Shown in pieces: positions 3,642-14,667 of a stretch of DNA of 46,105 bases. Origin of the DNA: a virus. The stretch's first letter is position 1. Every line of letters begins with the position of its first letter. The notes under the pieces were generated by a model that worked only from the letters and a program-made list of their open reading frames with translations, was not told the origin of the DNA and did no database searches. The stretch spans positions 1 through 46,105 of the IMG/VR virus record IMGVR_UViG_3300023179_000179. The stretch is one strand, 5' to 3'. The position numbers and the translations under genes are program-made.

Positions 3642-3653
3642 TTCCGGAAGGTG

Positions 3654-3683
3654 TTGTATTTTATAATAGATCTATGTTATAAT
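3654..3683 (+). promoter_or_regulatory. Promoter with -35 and extended -10 (family copy 3)
   Basis: TTGTAT (3654-3659), an 18-bp spacer, then TGT-TATAAT (3678-3683) and AGTACTA. It is one of the clearest -35 matches of the family. Confidence 0.85.
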
Positions 3684-5741: not shown

Positions 5742-5750
5742 TGATATAAT
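5742..5750 (+). promoter_or_regulatory. Extended -10 promoter of the ncRNA (family copy 5)
   Basis: TGATATAAT followed by AGTACC. No gene and no GACGGAAGGA leader follow within 300 bases, so this copy drives a non-coding transcript. Confidence 0.82.
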
Positions 5751-5756
5751 AGTACC

Positions 5757-6028
5757 AATGGGCTCACTAAGTCTTGGAGCATAAGGGTATCCCATGGGGA
5801 CACTAATCCCGATAAGCTGACGGTTACCGCAGGGTAACTTGACTTAGGAAAGAGACAGAGCGATATAGTCTTAGGGAAGTTAGGATTAAAACCGTACAGC
5901 AAAATCGACATGCGGTATTGCGCAAAAAGTGAAGCGCGAATCAGACCCTAGGTGAGCAAACTGTTTCGTCCAGTGATTTGAAGCTGGTTATGTGTACTCC
6001 AATCCATGTAACCAGCTTCTTTCATTTT
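5757..6028 (+). ncRNA. Structured non-coding RNA of about 270 nt (sRNA-1)
   Basis: The unit runs from a family promoter to a strong terminator without a plausible coding frame. Several helices can be drawn: CTAAGTC (5767-5773) with GACTTAG (5841-5847); TCCC-ATG-GGGA (5790-5800); GTTACC-GCAG-GGTAAC (5823-5838); CTTAGGG (5870-5876) with CCCTAGG (5946-5952, one wobble); TTGCGC (5918-5923) with GCGCGA (5934-5939). The terminal hairpin 5980-6019 presents TACTCCAATC. The loop octamer CTCCAATC (5997-6004) is exactly complementary to GATTGGAG (6091-6098), the ribosome binding region of the next gene. The same loop recurs in the RNA at 13133. No Rfam family recognised: it is too short for GOLLD or ROOL and lacks a tmRNA acceptor. 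Confidence 0.72.
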
Positions 6029-6029
6029 G
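5980..6029 (+). terminator. Terminator hairpin of sRNA-1
   Basis: GAAGCTGGTTA (5980-5990) pairs perfectly with TAACCAGCTTC (6009-6019), followed by TTTCATTTT. The apical part carries the shared TGTACTCCAATCCA element. Confidence 0.85.
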
Positions 6030-6031
6030 TA

Positions 6032-6061
6032 TTGTACTTTATAATAGATCCATGTTATAAT
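6032..6061 (+). promoter_or_regulatory. Promoter with -35 and extended -10 (family copy 6)
   Basis: TTGTAC (6032-6037), an 18-bp spacer, then TGT-TATAAT (6056-6061). It is the best -35 of the set and lies directly after the sRNA-1 terminator. Confidence 0.87.
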
Positions 6062-6104
6062 TATCTTATTAACGAGTTACGTTAATAGTTGATTGGAGAC
6101 TCAA

Positions 6105-6335
6105 ATGGTTAACAAGAATAACGAAGTTGCCGGCGAGATTGTCGGATGGTTTGAAAACTACGCATCAGTTTATGAATTCGATACACGAATTCAGTTTGAA
6201 GATTTCTCGCTTGAAGATATGAAATCATGCGACCTTGAAACTGTATGGTCGATTGTTGGCCCAATGGTTAAGGAACTTGTTGGAAGCTACCTTCAGGCAC
6301 AAATCGAAGAGCTTGAGATCGAGTTAGAAGACTAA
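6105..6335 (+). CDS. Small acidic hypothetical protein, possible sRNA target
   Basis: The ATG at 6105 has GGAG six bases upstream and is preferred to an in-frame TTG at 6093. The 76-residue protein (start MVNKNNEVAGEIVGWFENY, end ELEIELED) is helical and acidic and has no known motif. Unlike its neighbours it lacks the GACGGAAGGA leader: its ribosome binding region is TTGATTGGAGACTC, and GATTGGAG is the exact complement of the sRNA-1 loop. A strong terminator follows, so it is monocistronic. Confidence 0.75.
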   Translation: MVNKNNEVAGEIVGWFENYASVYEFDTRIQFEDFSLEDMKSCDLETVWSIVGPMVKELVGSYLQAQIEELEIELED

Positions 6336-6386: not shown

Positions 6387-6404
6387 TAATTAACCTGATA
6401 TAAT
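6375..6404 (+). promoter_or_regulatory. Promoter with -35 and extended -10 (family copy 7)
   Basis: CTGTAC (6375-6380), an 18-bp spacer, then TGA-TATAAT (6399-6404). No start codon with a ribosome binding site follows. Confidence 0.8.
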
Positions 6405-6408
6405 TATC

Positions 6409-6597
6409 TTAGACCAGACAGTCGAAAATCTCCTAGGAATCGATGGAGTAATTTCAGTTCAGGTTTTAGAAAGTGCGAATGGCGCGAATGGCGCGAATGG
6501 TTGGCCAATGATTAAGCTTACCGCTTCACCTTCTGAAAAATTCTACCAAAGTCTCGAAGAGATTTTTCCGGATTACGAAGATGGTGAAATAAAGTAA
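6409..6597 (+). pseudogene. Open frame without a normal start (gene remnant or unusual initiation)
   Basis: A coding-looking frame of about 62 codons (DQTVENLLGIDGVISVQVLE, three tandem A-N-G triplets from a 9-bp repeat, then WPMIKLTASPSEKFYQSL and EEIFPDYEDGEIK) runs from the promoter to TAA at 6595-6597. It has no ATG, GTG or TTG before the internal ATG at about 6508, which lacks a ribosome binding site. It is bracketed by a promoter and a terminator like its neighbours. Either the 5' end was lost when the promoter module was inserted, or translation starts in a non-standard way. The stop-free frame and protein-like composition argue against pure chance. Confidence 0.45.
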
Positions 6598-6708: not shown

Positions 6709-6981
6709 ATGGCCCAAATCAAAATCACCGAAATCTCGACCCGCTCGATGACACTCGAAATCGACCCGCTCGTATTTAACGACATCGACGCTTCCGAAGC
6801 CGGCGAAATCTATAACTGCGAAATCGCCGATTCTGCTGACTTCGACTGCGAATTCGACGACTGCGAAAATCAAACTACGCCGTCAATCTCGTTCCTCGAC
6901 ATGGCCCCCGCCCAATCCATCATGACCAACTGTCTCTCGCACTATCCTACCGTCAACGACTTCGTTTCTGCGAATCGCTAA
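6709..6981 (+). CDS. Hypothetical protein with atypical C-ending codons
   Basis: This 90-residue acidic protein begins MAQIKITEISTRSMTLEID, with AAAGGAG as ribosome binding site before the ATG. It has three Cys in the middle (YNCEIADSADFDCEFDDC) and may be metal- or disulfide-linked. Its codons favour C at the third position (ATC, CTC, GAC, TTC), unlike the A/T-ending codons of most genes in the window, and it shares this bias with the next gene. The two therefore look like one acquired block. It is monocistronic, between its own promoter and terminator. No family recognised. Confidence 0.75.
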   Translation: MAQIKITEISTRSMTLEIDPLVFNDIDASEAGEIYNCEIADSADFDCEFDDCENQTTPSISFLDMAPAQSIMTNCLSHYPTVNDFVSANR

Positions 6982-7051: not shown

Positions 7052-7099
7052 TAAACTAATAACAAAACACGTTATACGAAAATCCGATTGGGGCCTTTC

Positions 7100-7474
7100 A
7101 TGCAAAACGCAAACGAATTCACGCAAAACAAAAACTGCTACGACTACCAACAACTTGCTTTCTATGAAACATCGCCCGTCGACCTGAACAAACCGTTCTG
7201 CGTCGCCGTCGCTCTGCAATTTCTTGCCGAACGCTTCCCTAGCTCACCCATCACACTCGTTGCCACCGTCTCTGCCGGCTACAACGCTTACCAAATCCTG
7301 AACATCCCTGCCGAACATCTTGACCACTTCATCGGCCACTCCGGCTTCGACGAATTCGACGACACCGAAACCTTCGTGCCGCTCGAAACTAACGTCTACG
7401 CTCTCTACACAAACTTCGCCGAACTTTCGTACAACCTCGAAACTCAAATCGACGTCGACACTTTCCCTAACTAA
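7100..7474 (+). CDS. Stand-alone homologue of a domain in the polyvalent virion protein
   Basis: The ATG at 7100 follows GGGG at a distance of six bases; an in-frame TTG at 7088 is possible. Residues about 33-118 of the 124-residue product align without large gaps to residues about 679-766 of the 2021-residue protein at 23739. Shared blocks include PF..VA..FL.ERF, YQILNIP/YMILNIP, SGFDEF/SGFDDF, and LYTNFAELS/LYTDFSELN followed by NL. Roughly 40% of positions are identical by eye. The codons are C-ending here but A/T-ending in the embedded copy, so the two copies have separate histories. It has its own promoter and terminator and so can be made apart from the virion protein. Function unknown: it may bind or regulate the large protein, or be a free effector of the same kind. 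Confidence 0.82.
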   Translation: MQNANEFTQNKNCYDYQQLAFYETSPVDLNKPFCVAVALQFLAERFPSSPITLVATVSAGYNAYQILNIPAEHLDHFIGHSGFDEFDDTETFVPLETNVYALYTNFAELSYNLETQIDVDTFPN

Positions 7475-12215: not shown

Positions 12216-13125
12216 GTTACATATTGCGTACGATGATGTCTACTTAAAGTGGAAGTTAGGCCACGCAGATAGCAGTCACCCTACTAACCCGATTCGTGCA
12301 AAACTAGCTACAGAAATGTTATCAGCCGAGTTTGATGTAGAAATGCTAACTCCTAATGCTACAGTCATTGATCGTGACAGACTTGGTCTTGTTCACAGTA
12401 GCAGTTACATATCTGAAGTACTTGATGATGGCTGCAGTAGCGAGTGGTTCCCTGACAGTATAGAAAAAGGACAAGTAGCTCTAGAAATGTTTGCTGGTAC
12501 TGTTCGATGTGCTGAGAAGATTCTTTCAGGAGAAGCTACCATAGCTTTCAATCCGCAAGGAGCAAAACACCATGCGCAGCGAAAAAACAGTTCTGGTTTC
12601 TGTGTGTTCAATGACATGGCATGGGCAGCTCTTGATTTTAATGCACGCGGATACAAAGTTATGTACGTAGACTGGGATGCCCATCATGGAGATGGCGTAG
12701 AGAATATTCTGCGTGATCACTATGACATTATTACCGCTAGTATTCATGACTCTGTTATTTTTCCAGGGACAGGACTAAACGGACACTCACCAGATGAAGG
12801 AGTCTACAACTGGGCGTTAGACCCAGCTAGCGATGATAAAGCTTTTGTATCAGCGATGTCTGAAATAGAAGCTCTTGCTGATAAAGTAAAGCCAGACATC
12901 GTCTTGCTAGCTACAGGAGCTGACGCGCACGCTACTGACCCATTATCCACTCTTATGTTCGATTATCCAGGATACACGCATGCGGCTGAAGCAGTAGCAA
13001 GAATCGCAAATAAGTATTCTGCAGGTAGAGTTCTTATCGGTGGCGCTGGAGGGTACCAACCTTTTGACCATACTCCTAAAATTTGGGCAACTGTTGTTTC
13101 GCAGATCTATCGCAATGTGTTATAA
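12202..13125 (+). CDS. Histone-deacetylase-superfamily (AcuC-like) amidohydrolase
   Basis: ATG 12202 follows AAGGAGATTA. The 307-residue protein has the full class I/II HDAC active site. GAKHHAQ holds the paired His (H123, H124), YVDWDAHHGDGV the zinc ligands D159 and H161, TGADAHATDPL the third ligand D241, and GGAGGYQ the transition-state Tyr (Y285). An N-terminal AYDDVYLKWKLGHADSSHP matches the usual opening. The family removes acetyl groups from Lys side chains or polyamines. In a phage it could reverse host protein acetylation or act on an acetylated metabolite; the substrate cannot be read from sequence. It ends the operon, directly before the sRNA-2 promoter. Confidence 0.9.
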   Translation: MKKNKLHIAYDDVYLKWKLGHADSSHPTNPIRAKLATEMLSAEFDVEMLTPNATVIDRDRLGLVHSSSYISEVLDDGCSSEWFPDSIEKGQVALEMFAGTVRCAEKILSGEATIAFNPQGAKHHAQRKNSSGFCVFNDMAWAALDFNARGYKVMYVDWDAHHGDGVENILRDHYDIITASIHDSVIFPGTGLNGHSPDEGVYNWALDPASDDKAFVSAMSEIEALADKVKPDIVLLATGADAHATDPLSTLMFDYPGYTHAAEAVARIANKYSAGRVLIGGAGGYQPFDHTPKIWATVVSQIYRNVL

Positions 13126-13126
13126 T
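13118..13126 (+). promoter_or_regulatory. Extended -10 promoter of sRNA-2 (family copy 16)
   Basis: TGT-TATAAT overlaps the TAA of the deacetylase gene. No ribosome binding site or ORF follows before a terminator. Confidence 0.72.
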
Positions 13127-13132
13127 TACTTA

Positions 13133-13256
13133 TACTAGGTAAGGTTCCCGTTCGTTTCCTATACCTAAGGTCTCTCGATGTACTCCAATCCATCGATAGT
13201 AGACACCTTTCGAGGGGGGAAAAGCTAGGCGTTTCTGCGCCTAGCTTTTCTTTTTT
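13133..13256 (+). ncRNA. Small structured RNA of about 120 nt (sRNA-2)
   Basis: A short unit between a family -10 and a perfect terminator contains no gene. TAGGTA (about 13137-13142) can pair with TACCTA further on. The central hairpin CGATG-TACTCCAATC-CATCG presents the same loop as sRNA-1: TGTACTCCAATCCAT is identical at 5993-6007 and here. The flanks GG-TCT and AGAC-CC continue the stem with bulges. Two otherwise different phage transcripts keeping one loop suggests a common target, for example a GATTGGAG-type ribosome binding site. It could alternatively be the long leader of the terminase mRNA if the terminator leaks. Confidence 0.68.
13220..13256 (+). terminator. Strong terminator directly before the terminase gene
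   Basis: AAAGCTAGGCG (about 13221-13231) pairs with CGCCTAGCTTT (about 13238-13248) around a short loop, followed by TCTTTTTT. It ends two bases before the first possible terminase start. Confidence 0.9.
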
Positions 13257-13257
13257 A

Positions 13258-14667
13258 ATGTACTATGTACACATGGGCAAAAGCGTAATGGAGCAACTAG
13301 CACTTCTTCCAGAAGAAGAGCGTAACCAAATCCTGGCTGGTTTCGACATGGAACAGCTCATATGGGACTGGACTGTATGGGGAAGACCGGAACAACAGAC
13401 TCCTAAAGGAGAATGGTCTATATGGATGTACCTAGCTGGTCGCGGAGCTGGTAAAACAAGAGCTGCTGCCGAATGGGTTAGAGAAGAAGCTAGGCACACT
13501 ACAACAGGGCAACGCCGCTTTGCTTTAGTAGCTCGTACAGCAGCTGACGTACGTGACGTTATCGTTGAAGGTGAATCAGGAATTATTAACATAACGCCAC
13601 CTAGTGAGCGTCCCTTGTACGAACCCTCGAAGCGAAGACTGACTTGGCCCAACGGCAATACGGCAACATGCTTCACAGCTGACGAACCAGACTCCCTTCG
13701 TGGACCCCAGTTCACTCATGCTTGGGGAGACGAGGTAGCTGCTTGGAGACAAACTCCTGATGCGGCTGGTATGACCGCCTTCGACAACCTTCGCGTTGGC
13801 ACACGTCTTGGTAGCAACCCAAAAATAATGATTACCACTACTCCAAAACGAGTTCCATTGCTTTACTCTCTTTTAGCTGAGGCTGATAAAACTGGGAGAG
13901 TAGTCGTTACACGCGGATCAACACTCGACAACTCAGGTAACCTTTCACAGTCCTACCTTGATGCTATACTTGGAGTGTATGAAGGAACTAGGCTCGCATC
14001 GCAAGAGCTGTTTGGAGAAATGCTTTCAGACGTAGAAGGAGCGTTATGGACAATAGAGCTTATCGAAAAAGGAAGGCAAATGTCCATGCCATTAGGCGTT
14101 CCTCTTCGTGTAATAGGAGTCGATCCTTCAGTTGCGGAGAACCCAAAGGACGAATGTGGAATTATCGTATGTGCTTCTACTGGTGACCGTGACCTATATA
14201 AGAGGCAAAGCTGGGTACTTGAGGACGCAACCGTTCACGGCTCTCCTGATGTATGGGCAAACAAGGTAGTTCAAATGGCCCGTAAGTGGGGATGCCCAGT
14301 AGTGGCTGAAGTGAACCAAGGTGGCGCACTAGTTCGTAACGCCATTAACACCATTGACCCGTCAGTTACCGTCCTTGAGGTCCATTCTAAATACGGTAAA
14401 GCTCTTAGAGCCGAGCCTATAACATTGGCCTACGAACAGAGTCGCGTGCACCATGTTGGGTATTTAGGGGACCTCGAGTCACAAATGACCTCTTGGATCC
14501 CTGGAGAAGGCAAGTCGCCGGATAGGGTGGACGCGCTAGTTCACGCGCTCACAGCCCTACTGATCAAGCCTCCTGCGGGTTTTGTTGGGGGTCGAATCAC
14601 AGCAAAGTCCCCAGCTCAAAGGAAAATGCCTAGTTTTAGAGGTGGAAAAACATTTAAGGTTAGATAG
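13258..14667 (+). CDS. terL: Terminase large subunit
   Basis: The protein has up to 469 residues. The ATPase domain shows Walker A in LAGRGAGKTRAAAEW (about 59-73) and Walker B/coupling residues in FTHAWGDEVAAW. The nuclease half begins near RVIGVDPSV, with later acidic positions (EVNQGGALV, SPDRVDALVHAL). This is the motor that cuts and packages DNA into the prohead. The start is unclear: ATG 13258 abuts the sRNA-2 terminator, and ATG 13273 and 13288 also lack a good ribosome binding site. No small-terminase gene is adjacent; the portal lies 5.3 kb downstream, beyond the lysis genes, an unusual spacing. Confidence 0.93.
   Translation: MYYVHMGKSVMEQLALLPEEERNQILAGFDMEQLIWDWTVWGRPEQQTPKGEWSIWMYLAGRGAGKTRAAAEWVREEARHTTTGQRRFALVARTAADVRDVIVEGESGIINITPPSERPLYEPSKRRLTWPNGNTATCFTADEPDSLRGPQFTHAWGDEVAAWRQTPDAAGMTAFDNLRVGTRLGSNPKIMITTTPKRVPLLYSLLAEADKTGRVVVTRGSTLDNSGNLSQSYLDAILGVYEGTRLASQELFGEMLSDVEGALWTIELIEKGRQMSMPLGVPLRVIGVDPSVAENPKDECGIIVCASTGDRDLYKRQSWVLEDATVHGSPDVWANKVVQMARKWGCPVVAEVNQGGALVRNAINTIDPSVTVLEVHSKYGKALRAEPITLAYEQSRVHHVGYLGDLESQMTSWIPGEGKSPDRVDALVHALTALLIKPPAGFVGGRITAKSPAQRKMPSFRGGKTFKVR

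Follow-up and report, generated by a model that had tools for sequence, protein, structure and literature searches.

The locus lies in a window of 46,105 nucleotides, the whole stretch of viral DNA analysed here (IMG/VR record IMGVR_UViG_3300023179_000179, positions 1 to 46,105); the parts of the locus and of sRNA-2 described below are on the + strand. A structured RNA of ~270 nucleotides, sRNA-1, occupies positions 5757–6030 and is preceded by an extended −10 promoter (TGATATAAT, 5742–5750). It carries a terminator hairpin with a 15-bp stem and a 10-nucleotide loop (5980–6019). This loop, UACUCCAAUC (5995–6004), is the proposed seed and recurs unchanged in two other RNAs. Further downstream, a motif scan places a separate promoter (TGTTATAAT, 6053–6061), followed by a predicted leader hairpin (6067–6087) just 5′ of the Shine-Dalgarno element GATTGGAG (6091–6098) and by a gene for a 76-residue protein (6105–6335, ATG at 6105). 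The gene has no Pfam or PHROG match; homologues with the same type of leader occur in three related contigs (G001, G002 and G003).

TerL of the window virus shares 79% identity with that of the Actinomycetia phage DSL-LC01 (Dishui Lake) and ~60% with those of Microbacterium phages. These identities indicate that the virus is an actinophage, with freshwater actinobacteria as the probable host group; the host predicted for DSL-LC01 is Actinomycetia (PMC10611076). Many small genes in the window are individually preceded by an extended −10 promoter and by a leader containing GACGAAAGGA or GACGGAAGGA. TGNTATAAT occurs at 17 sites in the window, where 1.56 would be expected, and is a genuine promoter motif of the phage; the claim of the first-pass annotation that sRNA-1 has its own promoter was borne out; the promoter is also retained in homologues. 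A 33-bp promoter cassette at 3651–3683 is repeated at 6029–6061 with 91% identity and has many further copies in related phages, which suggests a duplication of promoter-leader modules. Elsewhere in the window, positions 369–2165 encode a 598-residue protein that appears VWA-like by eye; in related contigs it is found close to sRNA-1. The DSL-LC01 protein at the syntenic position, beside an AAA ATPase, is annotated as a cobalamin biosynthesis protein.

The predicted fold of sRNA-1 has an energy of −84.8 kcal/mol (z = −3.28), which none of 200 shuffled sequences equalled. Homologues were gathered by pattern scans of IMG/VR and by homology, giving nine distinct sequence types, the window included; the other eight come from uncultivated phages related to DSL-LC01. 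The RNAalifold consensus structure of these types contains 13 helices, with standard pairs in 96.6% of the pair cells. Double-sided changes were found in 18 of the 77 pairs, compared with a mean of 7.4 in shuffled alignments, none of which (0/500) reached 18; sliding the pair partners left 0–6 such pairs. The structure ascribed to this RNA at the outset is thus confirmed. Five pairs of the terminator stem are changed on both sides across homologues. The U-tract that follows the stem is interrupted (TTTCATTTT), so that the terminator, initially described as perfect, is good but falls short of that.

Using nhmmer, we found sRNA-1 in 12 contigs, and did not find it in the searched sequences of G003, G013–G022 and DSL-LC01. 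A blastn search of 50,697 phage records returned nothing beyond a short piece at E 3, and searches of GTDB genomes gave either no match or two chance matches with non-matching flanks. At gathering score, Rfam detected only tRNA in the window, and none of tmRNA, RNase P, 6S, group I intron or GOLLD. The best sub-threshold Rfam match of sRNA-1, Transposase-2, scored 19.4 bits against a cut-off of 42.7 (E 0.14) and was rejected, as were ctRNA_pGA1, sbrA and FsrA, which fell far under their cut-offs, several of them on terminator-like hairpins. Judged by sequence and covariation, sRNA-1 is a real, previously uncatalogued structured phage RNA and, as a carrier of the loop, a new RNA family.

The octamer CTCCAATC (5997–6004) within the loop is, as first noticed, the exact complement of GATTGGAG at 6091–6098. 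Both strands of the window hold four copies of GATTGGAG (1.23 expected), of which the copy at 6091 is the only one in a promoter-linked leader. Because the promoter at 6053–6061 lies between them, the loop and the Shine-Dalgarno element would normally be on different transcripts. Among the 13 promoter-linked leaders of the window, that of the 6105 gene forms the best predicted duplex with the loop (−11.3 kcal/mol, eight pairs), and that of the gene at 7100, with the related element GATTGGGG at 7086–7093, the second best (−10.7 kcal/mol); these energies leave out the cost of opening the loop. The 6105 gene had been considered exceptional in lacking GACGGAAGGA, a view that does not hold, given GATTGGGG before gene 7100 and similar leaders on many genes of related phages.

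The loop reads UAYUCCRAUC in seven of the nine sRNA-1 types and is replaced in the other two. It is complementary to the ribosome binding region of the adjacent gene in the window, G001, G002, G004 and G005, and not in G007 and G008. The adjacent leader has GATTGGAG in the window and G001 and GATTGGAA in G002. G004 and G006 combine the loop UAUUCCAAUC with a different next gene, again with GATTGGAA, and in G005 yet another gene, with AATTGGAG, adjoins sRNA-1. By duplex energy, the adjacent class-2 gene (see below) ranks first in the window, G004 and G005, second in G001 and seventh in G002. The loop is retained, or almost so, in G007 (UACUCCGAUC) and in G008 and G009 (UAUUCCAAUC), and in all three the next gene has the leader GACGAAAGGA; in G010–G012 the loop is replaced by unrelated sequence. 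Conversely, G003 has the 76-residue gene with GATTGGAA and no adjacent sRNA-1, and the loop is present there on another RNA. By the criterion set in the first-pass annotation, loop and neighbouring Shine-Dalgarno element do vary independently. Of the repression by loop pairing suggested initially, trans pairing with a class of leaders is supported, whereas the link to the next gene is not, as G007, G008 and G009 illustrate. The loop may alternatively serve as a general decoy resembling an anti-Shine-Dalgarno sequence.

Other partners for the loop were considered and rejected. Pairing within sRNA-1 to UUGGAG near 5773 is broken in L015 (UUAGAG with CUCCGA), and sRNA-2, described below, has no site corresponding to either UUGGAG or GGAUU near 5884. 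Mimicry of the tRNA-Trp anticodon (CUCCAAU) is contradicted by the CCG of G007 and by the misfit of the stem. G011 (L079, 5213–5491) has CUUCUUUCUGGGUU in place of the sRNA-1 loop; this sequence forms duplexes of about −11 kcal/mol with ordinary leaders of the GACGGAAGGA type and is possibly a retargeted seed.

In related phages, runs of small genes carry RATTGGRR in place of GACGAAAGGA, often after a short 5′ hairpin; hairpins like that at 6067–6087 occur in other leaders of this kind. We refer to these leaders as class 2. There are six in G001, nine in G002, four in G003, three in G005, two in G004 and four to five each in G013, G015, G017 and G022. DSL-LC01, which lacks the seed hairpin, nevertheless has one GATTGGAG leader. 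Non-redundant class-2 leaders have diverged, with only purines flanking ATTGG[A/G], the motif on which the compared examples had been selected. A 7-nucleotide complement of the loop is present in 22 of 155 non-redundant promoter-linked leaders, a count matched by 7 of 5,000 loop permutations in a post hoc test on leaders that are incompletely independent, since the promoter cassettes that bear them share sequence. At the R/Y position there is no clean covariation between leader and loop, both leader types being found in G001 and G002. GATCGGA leaders, which would match the loop variant of G007, were looked for and not found. Neither Pfam nor PHROG assigned a function to the class-2 proteins.

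A 90-residue gene at 6709–6981 has the leader ACAAAGGAG in the window and AATTGGAG in its homologues in G001, away from sRNA-1, and G005, a switch of leader class. Positions 6396–6597 hold the relic of a class-2 gene, in which the promoter runs straight into codon 16 onward of a 73-residue protein that is intact in G013 (89% identity). The relic lacks the leader, the start codon and codons 1–15, and has an expanded GCGAATG repeat.

The same loop is carried by a second RNA of the window. sRNA-2 (13131–13262) occupies the interval between a promoter (TGTTATAAT, 13118–13126, from the motif scan) and terL, and has its own terminator (stem 13220–13249). Its hairpin TCGATG-uacuccaauc-CATCGA (13175–13196, loop 13181–13190) presents the identical loop on a different stem. 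Homologous RNAs lie upstream of terL in many related contigs, and a pattern search based on sRNA-2 retrieved 12 contigs; sRNA-2 has no Rfam match, and none to C4 at E up to 10. Across these homologues the canonical loop sits on the stems TCGATG, CCTAGTG, GCGGATG, CGTGGTG, GCGAATG and GCAGATG. A third carrier, RNA-3, follows another gene in G002, G003, G005, G010–G012, L121 and L133, with the stems GGCGCG, TCCCGCACTG, TTCTGTAGTG and CCGCGCTG. The stems of sRNA-1, sRNA-2 and RNA-3 are unrelated to one another; the 10-nucleotide loop and its closing G-C pair are constant, the third loop base being Y (C or U). When only perfect 6-bp stems were counted, UACUCCAAUC occurred on five different stems, making it the most recurrent of 2,196 loops, every other of which had two at most.

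All terL-bearing contigs without sRNA-2 (G002, G003, G005, G010–G012 and L133) have RNA-3, and none of the contigs with sRNA-2 showed it; the outgroup DSL-LC01 has neither. This alternation between genomes implies that a hairpin carrier is retained and yet exchangeable. Of all the evidence for a function of the loop itself, its recurrence on unrelated, exchangeable carriers is the strongest. sRNA-2 also contains CCUUUCG (13206–13212), complementary to the class-1 leaders (CGAAAGG), and may hold one element per leader class. CCUUU is retained in the aligned sRNA-2 types and absent in L125. CCUUU(C) stands 3′ of the sRNA-2 hairpin in the window, L019, L081, L084 and L087, where it complements GAAAGG leaders and resembles the anti-Shine-Dalgarno sequence of 16S rRNA.

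Promoter-linked class-2 leaders were found in 16 contigs, and the canonical loop in 16 of these 16, a set that includes several near-copies and many contigs fetched through the loop. We therefore also sampled contigs blind to the loop, by searching with two class-2 protein families. In three contigs obtained in this way (L121, L125 and L133), class-2 leaders and the canonical loop occur together. In two others (L123 and L124), the genes for homologous proteins have ordinary leaders; these contigs show no class-2 leader within the part examined and carry an altered 11-nucleotide loop, UACCUCCAAUC, close to the sRNA-2 loop of G007 (UACCUCCAAUU). No clear class-2 leader was seen in the 114 kb of G007, where both RNAs have altered loops. 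Since G007, L123 and L124 look related, the joint loss of class-2 leaders and canonical loop may be a single event. Against the pairing, at least one RNA of G008/G009, G014/G021 and G010–G012 bears the canonical loop, yet these contigs show no class-2 leader in 10–20 kb; the single class-2 count of G012 is an ordinary GACGGAAGGATTGG leader. Either the loop has another use in these phages, or its targets lie outside the 10–20 kb fragments; a protein or a host RNA may be the target.

We favour, with a probability of about 0.48, the reading that the loop is a shared anti-Shine-Dalgarno seed acting in trans on class-2 leaders. Small RNAs of the phage would display the common seed G[UAYUCCAAUC]C on a stable hairpin, with sRNA-1 as one carrier and either sRNA-2, 5′ of terL, or RNA-3, behind another gene, as the second. 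The loop would pair with RATTGGRR in front of small genes, as many as nine in one contig, most likely blocking ribosome binding and so tuning the class-2 genes jointly. The sequences themselves show the RNA structures, the recurrence of the loop on unrelated stems, the two classes of leader, the complementarity and a partial co-occurrence of loop and leaders; expression of the RNAs, pairing in cells and repression in preference to activation are what we infer. At the sequence level, these RNAs have the exposed and conserved seed, complementary to several leaders, of a trans-acting anti-Shine-Dalgarno sRNA. We hold more tentatively, and at rather less than even odds, the wider proposal of a post-transcriptional regulon. 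It would comprise one interchangeable seed hairpin on at least three unrelated RNAs, two of them mutually substituting between genomes, a dedicated leader class on many small phage genes, and a conserved ~200-nucleotide core of sRNA-1 that would be a new large phage RNA with a second function.

The hairpin G[UAYUCCAAUC]C might instead be bound by an RNA-binding protein of phage or host, in antitermination for instance, with the match to the leaders incidental or secondary. Neither the closing G-C pair nor the 5′ UA of the loop varies, though pairing with RATTGGRR requires neither, and every loop base is conserved beyond what such pairing needs, which hints at a constraint from the loop fold or from a protein. 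Terminators, moreover, follow the hairpin in sRNA-2 and in the RNA-3 copies of G003, L121 and L133, and the hairpin of sRNA-1 is itself the terminator; a hairpin-plus-terminator stands upstream of terL, and the loop is retained in contigs where no class-2 leader was seen. Against this reading, permuted loops seldom match so many leaders (7 of 5,000), and altered loops occur in contigs without class-2 leaders. We consider a protein site rather unlikely as the main explanation.

A host RNA as the target would also account for loops without class-2 leaders, and is in our view distinctly improbable. The pairing partner would be either the Shine-Dalgarno regions of host mRNAs or 16S rRNA around helix 42. 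In the E. coli 16S gene, ACUCCAAUCC has an exact complement, GGAUUGGAGU. Actinobacterial 16S copies, those of Arthrobacter and Tsukamurella, read GGATTGGGGT, which allows ten pairs, one of them G-U. Actinomyces, however, has GGATCGGTGT, the GU on the motif's 5′ side finds no counterpart in 16S rRNA, and the matching stretch is base-paired in mature ribosomes.

The chance that class 2 is merely a duplicated promoter-leader cassette, matching the loop by accident, appears slim. The cassettes do have stretches around the promoter in common, and the match of one of two leader motifs to one loop emerged after looking. Nevertheless, the leaders have diverged except for RATTGGRR and its purine-only flanks, and both features coincide in the independent loop-blind contigs. 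Control of the directly downstream gene alone is very improbable and already largely refuted by G007, G008 and G003: this gene is the top duplex partner in the window, G004 and G005, and the G005 neighbour has AATTGGAG where its window homologue has ACAAAGGAG, but the neighbour carries GACGAAAGGA in G007, G008 and G009 (ranks 5 and 10), the leader occurs in G003 where sRNA-1 is absent, the gene that adjoins sRNA-1 in G005 also has AATTGGAG in G001, away from sRNA-1, and distant other RNAs bear the identical loop.

The favoured seed-leader pairing has parallels in known systems. C4, an antisense RNA of phages P1 and P7, targets a region that takes in the ribosome binding site of a gene close by, and RNAIII of Staphylococcus aureus, like other sRNAs with C-rich loops, blocks Shine-Dalgarno regions with a pyrimidine-rich loop. 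RNAIII is unrelated to sRNA-1 in sequence, structure and host. The hairpin loops of C4 pair with target phage mRNA (PMC5320573), and sRNA-1 is likewise a phage RNA with a hairpin loop that may pair with phage mRNA. C4 is ~77 nucleotides long, has three stem-loops and matures from a longer transcript by RNase P processing, whereas sRNA-1 (~270 nucleotides) and sRNA-2 (~130 nucleotides) each have their own promoter and terminator, and one loop is common to several RNAs and a family of leaders. The C4 model of Rfam had no match in the window at gathering score, nor in sRNA-1 or sRNA-2 at E up to 10.

The mycobacterial RNAs 6C and B11 use exposed pyrimidine-rich hairpin loops to pair with 5′-leader sites rich in purines, and the bacteria that make them have no identified Hfq or ProQ chaperone (PMC10470900). 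Their loops are C-rich and chromosomally encoded, unlike UACUCCAAUC, which is phage-encoded, is not a C tract and would target a phage leader motif; 6C is defined by two C-rich loops and a match to its Rfam model, which was not obtained here. The sRNA-1 system resembles C4 and 6C/B11 in its apparent way of working and, by Rfam and anatomy, belongs to neither. The phage sRNAs VpdS, PreS, OOP, SprY and AgvB act by pairing with the phage or host RNAs that they regulate (PMC12197685), and none, within the portion of that source available to us, is encoded by a freshwater actinophage or has its seed loop in common with other, unrelated RNAs. Nor was a phage regulon built on a shared RNA seed and leader code described in the available portions of the sRNA literature that we compared.

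Most known phage sRNAs act singly, and a seed shared among RNAs together with a leader code would contrast with them. We know of no phage RNA biology in these uncultivated, probably freshwater actinobacteria. sRNA-1 adds a conserved 270-nucleotide RNA without a catalogued relative, and the combination of the GUAYUCCRAUCC hairpin with RATTGGRR leaders provides a marker by which further systems may be found.
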